Source: Sipunculus nudus
Taxonomy: Eukaryota > Annelida > Sipuncula > Golfingiida > Sipunculidae
Assembly: GCA_026874595.1 (NCBI GenBank)
Contig: CM049310.1
Span: 79,105,056 to 79,169,055, forward strand
Length of the DNA: 64,000 nucleotides
Direction: 5' to 3'
A program made the position numbers and the translations under genes. Below, one piece after another: positions 24,301-30,300 of this stretch. Within the stretch, counting starts at the first letter, position 1. Each line of letters begins with the position of its first letter. The notes under the pieces were generated by a model. It was not told where the DNA came from. It worked only from the letters and a program-made list of their open reading frames with translations, and ran no database searches.

Positions 24301-27300
24301 TATGTTCTGAAAGACTACTTAGATATATAGAATAAAGTTAAGAATTAAGTTCCGGCCTAAATAGTTCATATGCTTTTGAATAGGTTTAACCATACAGACA
24401 CAGCTTAATTTGTTTGATCATCATGATGGAGTTTCTGCAGAATCTTAATTTGACCACCCTGTAGGTCTATACGGACTTCAGTATCATCGGGTTTCACTGA
24501 AGTGAGTTTGTTTTATCATGATACCTCTCCAGAGTGAACTTTCTGAGGGAATGAATAGCATATATACTGTGATTGGCGTCATATTTGTCAGGTTAAAATT
24601 TCACTATTTTTAAGTTTTTCATCATTTCACAAGAGTTCCATTTTTGAGATCGCACCATATAATAACCTACACAGCGTATCTCAATAAATTTTTTGTCCAA
24701 TTATAAAAAATTAAATGAAATTTTTTCCTTTTGGCCAGTGACCCAATGAACTTCAACCAAGTAGAATTATTGTTCATAATTGACTGATCATTTGAAACAT
24801 ATGATATTTATAATAGCAATCTTTGATCTATGAGTAACATACAAGATCTACAGTTATATATGACATTGATCTTTTTCAGACTTCCTATTCACAAAGGTTT
24901 TATTTTTGTGATAATTTCCCTAGCTTTAGTGAATATTGCGAATTGGAAACTGTCAGTCACAAAATATCAATGACAGTATGCAAAAGTGCATTGAGCATGT
25001 ATAAGAGAGAAAGGTCTGATTCATATTTTATACCTACATTAAAAAAATTGATGAATGTGAGCATATAGTGCAGCTACATATATTTATTATTTACAGGGAG
25101 AACTATTCTTTTGTCCACCCACCATATGGACGAGGCTGACATTTTGGGTGACCGGATAGCTATTGTATCACACGGCCAGATGAAATGCTGCGGGTCTTCT
25201 CTTTTCTTGAAGAGCACGTTTGGTGAAGGCTACCACCTGACTGTGGTTAAAAAACACTGTGAAGAGGATCTTCAGAGCATTGGTAGGTTGTACTGTGACA
25301 TTGAAGACTTAAGCTAAGATTCCTTATGTATGGAATGCAGAATCCCACATGCAGAATGAGGAATGTGTGTTGAGAAATTTCATAAGGACTACCACAGCAG
25401 CATGCATGTTTTCTATGTGTTACTCTCGATACCATGCTGAACCAGTAACATTTGCCCAATGTAGCAATTTGTTTTGCTGGATATTCATTCCCCCATGCGG
25501 ATCTGCACATAAGGAATCTCACCTCAATAGGAAATTTGTCTGCATTCCGCATTCCACATCACACATTCCTTACATAAGGAATCTTAGCTAAAGTTGGGTC
25601 AGTAAACCATACCTTTTATACATTATCATGACATTAAAGTCTTCATTATTTTATATAGACCAGAACAATTTTTTATCAGATTATTTATTGTGACAGAGTC
25701 TGGTAATAAAATACTTGTAATTATCAATTGACAGAGTTTATTTTATGTTCAAAGTTTTATCATGGTTAGTTATGTGAGAAAATATGTGTCCATATCCACT
25801 GTAAGCCTGTTCACAGTTTTCCTGTATATTTGTATTTATCTCGTTTCAGATAAATTGAATATATTATTTCTCCAGATGATGGTGTGAATTGTCACATAGA
25901 AATATATGAACCAAGATGACAGATATTAAATTTAAATGTTAAAAGAAATGAGTTAATAAATGATTTAAAAATTTCTTATTTTTTCTTAATTTCAACAGAA
26001 ATGGGAAGATATGGTACCCTCTTTTTATCTCAATATTTTAACTTGTACTTCTCTAAACCATTACAGCTGAGACTATGTCTCAGAGTAGCCAGACTACATC
26101 AGTTCCTCCGATGCCGTTCAGTAAGTGCTGTGAGCCCAGAGTGACACGCTTCATACAGCGCTGTGTCCCGTCAGCTTACCTGAAAGCTGAAAGTCTACAA
26201 GAGCTGCACTATATCCTGCCATTCGAGGCTGCCAAGAAGGGCCAGTTCGAGAAGCTGTTCAACATGCTGGACCCTGCATTGGCTGACCTAGAAATTAGCA
26301 GCTATGGCGTCATGGATACCAGTCTCGAAGAAGTATTCCTCAAGGTCACAGAAAGGGCACAGAAGGCCCATGAACAAGACAATGCAGGTACTGTGGTTGG
26401 CTTCATATTAGCAGGATTAAAATTTCGTGAATTTTCACCATTTCATTGTTTTGCGAAGGTTCCATTTTTGCAATCTCACAATACAAAAGATCTATACACA
26501 GAGTATAACCATTATTATTTGAATTAATTATATCAAATATTATGTGCACAAAATCTTATTAACAAAGATATTGTTCGTTAAATGCGGACGGTTGGAAAGA
26601 TCTGATATCATTTAAATATCAACCTTTCAACATACACAGTCTAATATTATTCACAATGTCAGCCTTTTATTTTTCAACTTATTTGGTAAGGTTTTATTTT
26701 TGCAATTCAGGAATATCACGAATTTGAAACCCTCTAAAAAAAAGGCAACCTCTGTATTTGAATATAAAGGATTAATAAAAATTTATCAAGAATGCTCATT
26801 CTGGTTCTTTAAAAAAATTTTGAAAGATAAAAGAATCCACATATTGGGATTATTGTAGGACATTTTGTTGTTATATAAAATGTTAAAAGTACATTTGTGA
26901 ATCACATCACTTCCTACTTAGAAAAGTATTTATGGCAGCAGTAATGGGCAAGTGTGTGAAGTATTCCTTCTTGATGAAAGTTTTAGTTATTTACTGATAA
27001 CTAACAGTGGAACTGTACTAACTAATAGTTAGTATAGTTCCATAGTGAAGCTTTCAGGGTAAAATGTGATATGAATTATTCAATTGACAGTTAGTGTTCT
27101 GCACTATCCATAATTTTGTTTGAGTTGAGTGTATCATTGCATTTAAAAATTGATATAGAAGTACACTTCCTTCTTTAACAAGATTCCTGAAAGAAGAAGG
27201 CATTTGATAGTGTTATATTTTACTGTATTTTAGAAAACACAGAAAAAGAAAACAACACCAGTCTGCAACAAACTCTTGTCCCAAAAGAAGGAACAGGAGG

Positions 27301-30300
27301 CCACAAACGGGAAGCCAGTGATGCATCCATCTTGTCAGATACTGTTTTTCGGCCTGATGATCTAGAATCAGGGCTACCTGCCCAAAGAGAGCTACAGCGC
27401 ACCCTAAGTGATTCCTCAAACACCTCTGACTTACTCTTTATTCCTGGTGTGGATGAGCCTGTATCAGTGCTGCCAACACAGCCAGGTCATGCCAGAATGC
27501 CGAGTGACGCTTCTCTCCTGTCTGATATCATGATGAAGAGCACCGATGTAAAATTGGAACAAATTGCAGGCAGGGACCAGTCTAGAATTGTTCCTGCAGG
27601 GTCACACGTGGCACCCAGCTATCAACAACACAGAAGACATGCAAGTGATGTACCGTTGCTCACTGATCACCATTTAGACCCCTTAGATGTTGCTACAAGA
27701 TCAGCGACATCTGGTGGTAATGCCGGAACTATAACGGGCCATCGCAGGACGCCAAGTGATGTCCCACTTCTCAGTGATGCAGGTGCCCCTCACAGAGAAG
27801 TTCTTAATTTCGTCCAGTCTAGTTCAGTCAGCCACCACCAGAGGTCACCCAGCGATGGCTCTCTGATGGCAAATTTATTGCTTGGGCGTAAAAAGAACAG
27901 CCCTACACACAGAAGGAACATTAGTACAGGCACGGTCCTGTCAATGCAGAGTTGTGATGGGGCAGAGCTTCCTGGTGTACAGAGAAGAAGAACATTCCAT
28001 CGGGGCTCAGGGCCTAAATATGTGTCTCTAGATACTGAAGATGATGACAATAAAGGTATGTGTCATTTTAAGAAGTAACTGAGTCAAAACAGGACACTGT
28101 AGTCACACCATTGCACTGCTGTTGTGGATATCAACGGTTCCACTTACTTAGAAATGTAGGACAATGTAGCCTAATTATGAATATAGTTCAGAGTCAAAAT
28201 AACGAGTCCTATAAAAGCATGCTGTTCTAGGGTGCACACAAAATTTTAAGAGAACTGTCTCTCTATTGAGGCCTTGCTTAAAACACAAGCCTTGTGCTCC
28301 ACTGACATTGGTTTTTAATTTTGTATTGACCCAATATTTTCCCACAAGCAAATGTTTACTTAACAGTGTAAATAATATGGCATCTTTATCTAGAACTAAA
28401 GGTCTTCTCTCACTTGATGAATTAACATTCAGTCACTGTCAGCTGTGATCTGTCATACAAAAAAAAGGATCCTACCTCTTTGGTGTTCCTTATTTAATTT
28501 AATCTTTGTTAAATTTGTTTTCCTCTTAGCAAATGGGTGTTTGAATGTTTTCATCACTGATGTTCTGTCCTGCTTATACACATAATAATTTGCTAAAATA
28601 TTTTGTTAAAATTGAGCATATGCAACGTCTTAAATTTTTCATCAATGTTTTTTCAGGGAAAAATGGGCGAGATTCTTTAGCAGAAGGCAGAGGTAGTTAT
28701 GTAGTGACAGGTTACTCCCTTCACTTTCAACAGTTCCATGGTGTGATAAGGAAACGTTTTGCATACACAACACGTAACTGGAAAGGACTTTTTTCTCAAA
28801 TCCTGTTGCCAGCCTTGTTTGTATGTGTAGCGATGACTGTAGCCCTTACGGCCCCGCAAGTTAAAGATTTACCAGAAATGGTGCTCAGCCCAGCTCAGTA
28901 CTATAACTACACACAGCCTCGTGGAAATTTTATTCCCGTGACTATACATAAAAAAGTTGTTCTTCCTGAGTGGAACAAAGATGCAGGTCCTGATAAACTG
29001 ATGGATACTATGTACCTGCCATGTGGAACAGGAGCAACGTGCTTACTGAACTCACCGTACAACAAAACTGATGACCCAGCAGTGCTAAAGCGCTACCTGT
29101 TGGCACAAAATTATAACTCGCTTCTGAAGAAATATTACATTCCGGAGTGCGAGAGTGTCTTTGCAAGATGGCAGCCTCGAGATACATTCCTACCCAGACC
29201 CCCCACAGAGCCACCACTGCCAGAACCAAGTGCAAATAAATCAGGTGAGAAAATTGTTACCTACAATGTTTACAGTAAAACTGCCTTTGCTGCTCAGTGC
29301 TGTCTAGTTTTCATTCAGGGAATAAGCAATTTCTGAAGAATTCATACAGGAAAACATTTGTGCATAGTCATAGTGGGTTCAAAGTTAAAAGCACTGTTAA
29401 CTACAGTAAAGAGAGATAAAATTGCTAAGTAAAATATTAACTGCAGATCTTTTTTGTTGTGCTCACTAGATGGCATTGATAAGTAAGTGGGGTACAACCA
29501 AGTATGATTATAATTGTACCAAACTGTTACCCACTTGTTATGCCTTAGGATCAACTTGAGCATATTATAATTACATACTTTTGTCAAGTCAAGAATGAGT
29601 GTTTCTGTGGTTTAATTGTCTTGAGTAGTTATCAGAGTTTATTATCTGGATTTACAACTGGAAAGTCCTGTCATTTTAAGAAATATTCTTTATCTTTCAT
29701 ATTATCCTTTACCACTGATATTTTAAAATATTATTAGAATATCAGAGCAAAATAAGACTTGATTCAAGTAGGGCCCAAACAAATAAAGAGGTGTTTCCCT
29801 GTGTGCGCATATGCATGAAAAATCACTCATTGTATCACCAGACATAGTCTGGAGATACTATGGTTTAGGCACGGTCGCCCCGCCGCTGCCGCCGCCGCCG
29901 CCGCCGCCGCAGAGATTTCTTTTGGACACAATAACTCAAAAAATATTTCACGGATCTTTACCAAACTTGGTATATGTATAGATATGGGTGAGAGGACGAC
30001 GCCTATTTAAAATGAGGTCATGACCTGAACTAGGAGAGTGACCTTGACCTTGAATAGGTTCAATTTTGGGGAAAATCACACAAATTCTTAAATATCTCAA
30101 GAAAACTTGCATGGATTGATCCCAAAATTAAGTTGATCGAAGATCATGGATTGGGTTGTCATGTTCCAGAAACTGGTGGCGCCACCTATTATTCTTTACT
30201 TGTTTTCATGCCGTTTAATATCCCCAAAATTGCTACTTGACAGTACTGTGAGCATTATAAGTCAAAAACTAATGGACAGATTTCTTTCATATTATGCAAA

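Follow-up and report, generated by a model that had tools for sequence, protein, structure and literature searches.

Seven H-x-R-x-x-S-D-x-x-L-L-[ST]-D units in a linker exon of a likely ABCA2-type transporter gene of Sipunculus nudus hint at Hippo-family (NDR/LATS) control

The + strand of the window (the whole 64-kb stretch of Sipunculus nudus DNA that was analyzed) carries a portion of an ABCA-type transporter gene. The R1 regulatory domain is situated in an exon ending at 26387, with a donor after that position, and is followed by a linker exon and by the exon in which the second transmembrane domain (TMD2) begins, as listed below.

26138 to 26311, + strand: R1 regulatory domain after NBD1 (Pfam PF23321 R1_ABCA1, E 2.6e-5, 24.6 bits, below the curated cut-off of 27)
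27234 to 28055, + strand: linker exon, 822 nt, phase 1-1, coding the linker from NBD1/R1 to TMD2 with seven repeat units
27302 to 27340, + strand: unit 1, with a near DXXLL match, DASIL
27392 to 27430, + strand: unit 2, with Leu in place of His at -5 and no LL at +4/+5
27488 to 27526, + strand: unit 3, with an exact DXXLL at 27506-27520
27629 to 27667, + strand: unit 4, with an exact DXXLL at 27647-27661, and 81% identical to unit 5 at the DNA level over 26 nt
27740 to 27778, + strand: unit 5, with an exact DXXLL at 27758-27772
27836 to 27874, + strand: unit 6, with a near DXXLL match, DGSLM
27908 to 27946, + strand: unit 7, without Asp at +1 and resembling the NDR site of Raph1
28657 to 29336, + strand: open frame of the next exon, where TMD2 starts, with the acceptor TTTTTTCAG before 28657

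The linker thus lies in frame between an R1 domain upstream, scored below the curated cut-off, and the start of TMD2 downstream. The exon coding it is bounded by the acceptor TTTTAG before 27234 and the donor AAAG/GTATGT after 28055, contains no stops in its own frame (10 and 24 in the two other frames) and has a GC content of 0.483, compared with 0.289 and 0.335 in the adjoining introns. Joining it to both neighbors, ending at 26387 and starting at 28657, is in phase 1 on both sides and produces no stops, and the product lacking the 822-nt exon (26387 joined to 28657) is also in frame. With its phase of 1-1 and a length divisible by three, the exon could be alternatively spliced to turn regulation by the linker on or off; an isoform that skips it would lose the entire array of seven without a frameshift.

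Against the PDB, the 28657-29336 frame scored 48.8-48.9 bits to human ABCA1 chains, followed by ABCA7, ABCA4 and ABCA3, and a Pfam search of the same frame found no family above its cut-off. PDB searches with NBD1 and with TMD2 matched 13 sequences each, all of them ABCA1, ABCA3, ABCA4 or ABCA7, with no ABCA2 chain among the matches of either search. The TMD2 start is 69.9% identical over 73 residues to what we take to be the human ABCA2 segment and 42.5% identical to ABCA1. We regard the assignment of the gene as an ABCA2-type transporter as likely and no stronger. To our knowledge, the linker of human ABCA2 is shorter and lacks the array found here. ABCA2 is described as an endolysosomal protein (PMC8717091).

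The seven-unit array in this ABCA2-like linker exon is real. A preliminary description of this DNA had placed seven units at 27302-27946, and all seven were found there, sharing the 13-residue consensus H-x-R-x-x-S-D-x-x-L-L-[ST]-D within a single exon; S. nudus is so far the only genome in which the array is known. Arg at -3 and Ser at 0 are present in every unit, and His at -5 and Asp at +1 in 6/7 each, in agreement with the six H-x-R starts and six S-D sites counted previously; five units combine His -5 with S-D. In the 3' part of the unit, a hydrophobic residue at +4, a hydrophobic residue at +5 and Ser or Thr at +6 each occur in six units and Asp at +7 in five. The three exact DXXLL motifs (units 3, 4 and 5) and the two near matches (units 1 and 6) were likewise as described, and the count of seven R-x-x-S sites holds for the repeat units, but the exon has eight such sites, the extra one being RDQS at 27572, outside the repeat. 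Successive unit serines are separated by 30, 32, 47, 37, 32 and 24 residues. A basic stretch at 27977-28010, 3' of unit 7, has Arg at -3 of a Thr and carries neither His at -5 nor S-D.

The significance of these patterns was assessed with 20,000 composition shuffles of the 273-aa linker for each. H.R..S occurred six times (shuffle mean 0.125, maximum 3), R..SD six times (mean 0.22, maximum 3), H.R..SD five times (mean 0.011, maximum 1) and D..[LIM][LM] five times (mean 0.38, maximum 4), and for each of the four patterns the observed count was reached in 0/20,000 shuffles. Enrichment was weaker for R..S alone (8 versus a mean of 2.67, reached by 38/20,000), for exact DXXLL (3 versus 0.22, reached by 29/20,000) and for DXXLL or DLL (4 versus 0.43, reached by 20/20,000). 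Across all six frames of the window (127,996 residues) there were 22 occurrences of H.R..S, six of which fall in the 273-residue linker frame. The column likeness of the units was 64, compared with a mean of 35.5 and a maximum of 55 for 20,000 random sets of seven serines drawn from the linker. When positions -5, -3, 0 and +1 were held fixed and the remainder of the units was shuffled 20,000 times, the hydrophobic residues at +4 and +5 were matched in 0.0006 and 0.00045 of shuffles, respectively, and S/T at +6 and D at +7 in 0.00005 each. Since the residues from +4 to +7 are conserved beyond chance, the repeat unit is longer than the R..SD..LL motif of the preliminary description. The search for paralogous arrays in this genome was negative, the linker protein matching only its own locus among 7 candidates scored at E up to 1, and a profile of the seven units had no PDB match at E up to 10.

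The units had also been said to share residues but not codons. Over whole units, codons were more alike than expected, with 16/5,000 synonymous shuffles reaching the observed likeness, or 2/2,000 when only identical residues were considered. This excess is attributable to the acceptor serine, because it disappeared when Ser0 was removed (575/2,000 shuffles reached the remaining likeness, and 626/2,000 when +1 was removed as well). The earlier statement is therefore only partly right and fails at Ser0, which is encoded by AGY in 7/7 units compared with 8/28 of the other serines in the exon (Fisher p 0.00096), the six nucleotides AGTGAT being identical in units 1, 2, 4 and 5. Because a single substitution cannot convert an AGY serine codon into a TCN one, common ancestry of the units is probable, and shared descent alone could explain part of their likeness. 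That residues were kept after synonymous sites had drifted apart argues for selection on the protein sequence of the units, within the limits of a modest test on seven short units.

Six of the seven units fit HXRXXS/T, the consensus of the NDR/LATS kinases, which occurs at five sites in YAP and four in TAZ (PMC3849777) and is the same for yeast Cbk1 (PMC4428629). For two sites in Kif23, NDR and LATS kinases were reported to need His at -5 in vitro, and according to that study reliance on it had been reported for no further basophilic kinase (PMC4320110, 2015). The presence of several such sites in one protein is a feature that the six in the array share with YAP and TAZ; those LATS substrates, however, are transcription co-activators rather than transporters, and the likeness was compared only up to the phosphoserine. 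Further NDR sites are HRRILpS in AAK1 and HTRNKpS in Rabin8 (PMC3849777), and among 11 candidate substrates of NDR1/2 the eight ranked highest have a role in endomembrane trafficking (PMC9711861). The NDR1/2 substrates AAK1, Rabin8, Raph1, PI4KB and Rab11fip5 combine HXRXXS/T with endomembrane trafficking, as appears to be the case here, but AAK1 and Rabin8 are described with one site each and Raph1 with two motif matches, and none of these trafficking substrates is an ABC transporter. The peptide used to raise the Raph1 NDR-site antibody is TNQHRRTAS*AGTVS (PMC9711861), of which HRRTAS*AGTV resembles unit 7. The genome contains exons of the MOB family, with nine matches over the cut-off. Presumably, the AAK1, PI4KB and Rab11fip5 sites carry Asp at +1, as do most units here; searching the literature for these three sites as 7-letter peptides returned one match, unrelated by its title, which lent no support to a preference of NDR for Asp at +1. 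Taken from the motif, the array hints at control of a lipid pump by Hippo-family (NDR/LATS) kinases.

Several observations count against this assignment or limit its weight. Unit 2 lacks the His, and HXRXXS leaves the L, L, S/T and D at +4 to +7 unexplained. The sites of MYPT1 and 14-3-3 gamma, both listed LATS substrates, and the NDR site of p21 lack His (PMC3849777), indicating that NDR/LATS kinases are not strict for it, and Kif23 S716 is phosphorylated in vivo without need of the His (PMC4320110). A match to the consensus can also stay unphosphorylated, as is the case for Raph1 S571 (PMC9711861). The fungal NDR docking motif [YF]xFP occurs 0 times in the linker exon; it was shown for fungal Cbk1 and is not in all probable Cbk1 substrates (PMC4428629). 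Nothing on His -5 was found in the excerpt of the kinome atlas (PMC9876800). A limited literature search found no link between ABCA transporters and NDR/LATS, the 'abca' text inspected in one paper being the name 'Abcam', and among the matches listed no title concerned ABCA2 linker phosphorylation or a mollusc ABCA2, results that do not imply absence in print.

Other kinase consensus sequences were scored as basic residues at -3 and -2 for PKA, R at -5 and -3 for Akt, a basic residue at +2 or +3 for PKC, an acidic residue at +3 for CK2, and hydrophobic residues at -5 and +4 for AMPK; the scored features of all five were found in 0/7 units and these candidates were rejected. With respect to AMPK, unit 2 has Leu at -5 and lacks the hydrophobic residue at +4. 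Ser or Thr at +3 is present in 5/7 units (1, 2, 3, 6 and 7), which corresponds to the CK1 priming spacing pS-x-x-S, as in the YAP degron. The suggestion in the preliminary description of a multisite phospho-linker served by generic basophilic kinases accordingly survives in its multisite aspect, but it noted H-x-R without recognizing His -5 as diagnostic of NDR/LATS, and the features scored for PKA, PKC and Akt, which it named, are absent.

The interpretation that we prefer, and to which we assign a probability of about 45%, is that the array forms a linker whose NDR/LATS sites are read by 14-3-3 proteins or as an R region; the kinase, the phosphorylation and the readout are all inferred. The exon would code a regulatory linker of an ABCA2-type lipid transporter, inserted between NBD1/R1 and TMD2 in the manner of an R region. 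This linker is probably disordered, as judged from a single-sequence AlphaFold model with a pLDDT of 45.6 and a pTM of 0.14; it matched no Pfam family at E up to 1, and its charge-hydropathy value is borderline (0.420 versus a boundary of 0.4185), not clearly disordered. Judging by the motif, an NDR/LATS-family kinase with a MOB co-activator would phosphorylate the unit serines at endosomes or the Golgi. Less firmly, the output could be the binding of dimeric 14-3-3 to pairs of phosphorylated units, whose separation of 24-47 residues would suit such a dimer, or else the phosphorylated units might lie against NBD1 as in CFTR and Ycf1; in either event, the dose of phosphorylation would set the destination or the speed of the transporter. 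Binding of 14-3-3 to NDR/LATS-type phosphosites is reported for YAP S127 (PMC3849777) and Kif23 S814 (PMC4320110), 14-3-3 is reported to stabilize CFTR and to raise its biogenesis and activity (PMC9226124), and 14-3-3 exons exist in this genome. If correct, this interpretation would establish a direct connection between a lysosomal lipid transporter and the Hippo-family NDR/LATS kinases, which have so far been associated with growth control and vesicle traffic, and the ABCA subfamily would gain a CFTR-like multisite phospho-linker.

It is rather unlikely that the linker instead acts directly on the ATPase cycle as the target of a different kinase selecting Arg at -3 (of the CaMK, PKD or AMPK type), with no role in sorting or 14-3-3 binding. 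The linker is in the appropriate position, after NBD1 and before TMD2, as is the R domain of CFTR, and offers multiple R-x-x-S sites. The hydrophobic +4 residue of 6/7 units is also an AMPK-type feature, but the AMPK pair of -5 and +4 is found in none of the seven, and other -3 Arg kinases leave both the His at -5 in 6/7 units and the Asp at +1 unexplained. We know of no HXRXXS array in the R domains of CFTR or ABCC transporters. Phosphorylation regulates Ycf1, MRP2 and CFTR, acting through the disordered R domain in Ycf1 and, by PKA, at more than 10 sites in CFTR, and a phosphorylated R domain encircles NBD1 in an ABCC transporter (PMC8917219, PMC11361370, PMC10944535, PMC10912322, PMC11573500); regulatory domains of ABCA transporters have also been suggested as phosphorylation sites (PMC13161189). 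Although the R domains of CFTR and the ABCC transporter Ycf1 are, like the linker here, phospho-regulated regions adjoining NBD1, they belong to members of other ABC subfamilies, with PKA as the kinase of CFTR, and the likeness is positional. The CFTR-like mode had been offered as the alternative in the preliminary description; being topologically well placed, it is at least as likely as the phospho-gated GGA sorting array that was put forward there, in which GGA VHS domains would recognize the units as DXXLL signals, binding them more strongly once the Ser that precedes the Asp is phosphorylated and so setting placement between endosome and lysosome. That sorting array is possible but unlikely. 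The exact or near DXXLL follows the unit Ser directly in five units and is missing from two, no shuffle reached the five D..[LIM][LM] matches, hydrophobic residues occupy +4 and +5 in 6/7 units each, and an exon of a GGA-type adaptor is present in this genome (PF18308 GGA_N-GAT, one match, 60.1 bits, C2:19499271). Exact motifs, however, are limited to 3/7 units, a number that 29/20,000 shuffles reach, and DXXLL does not explain the equally conserved S/T at +6 and D at +7. The cargo proteins CI-MPR, sortilin, BACE1 and LRP9 have D-x-x-L-L, some with an upstream phosphorylated Ser as here, but in receptor tails (two copies in LRP9), and DXXLL cargo signals are, as far as is known, generally at tail ends, whereas the copies in the array are all internal. 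The CI-MPR signal is lost when the end of the tail is cut (PMC1891007), and the DXXLL motif is strict, since changing Asp to Glu alone markedly weakens binding (PMC13386808). In favor of sorting, phosphorylation of the upstream Ser raises the avidity of CI-MPR for GGA3 and of BACE for GGA1, LRP9 uses two DXXLL motifs, and an internal DXXLL in GGA hinges can bind VHS domains (PMC13386808, PMC3743005); the upstream serines of MPRs and GGAs are nevertheless CK2 sites (PMC3743005, PMC13386808), unlike the basophilic serines of the units. Overall, the observation made in the preliminary description is confirmed and its interpretation is partly supported.

We consider it quite unlikely that the units are bifunctional, with an NDR/LATS site and a DXXLL-like sorting signal sharing residues, an arrangement by which Hippo-family signaling would exert direct, graded control over where a lysosomal lipid transporter resides, and which would give the ABCA subfamily an R region made of NDR/LATS sites. 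Also quite unlikely is the view that a short unit was duplicated and drifted, with little or no function, in a disordered exon that can be skipped in frame. The phase 1-1 exon does permit such skipping, and duplication is suggested by the uniform AGY codon and by the 81% DNA match between units 4 and 5, but the residues at -5, -3, 0, +1 and +4 to +7 have been kept beyond shuffles, whereas synonymous sites show no such likeness outside Ser0, and the linker is confined to a single locus in this genome at E up to 1.

Elsewhere in the assembly, all 19 of the best PF00005 matches lie on contigs C61-C89 and C108-C138, in open frames of about 250-390 aa with no stops, and six of them share one score (2.3e-36, 363 aa frame). 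These PF00005-bearing contigs (C61-C138) look like intronless, bacteria-like DNA in the assembly, possibly from several related symbiont or contaminant strains.
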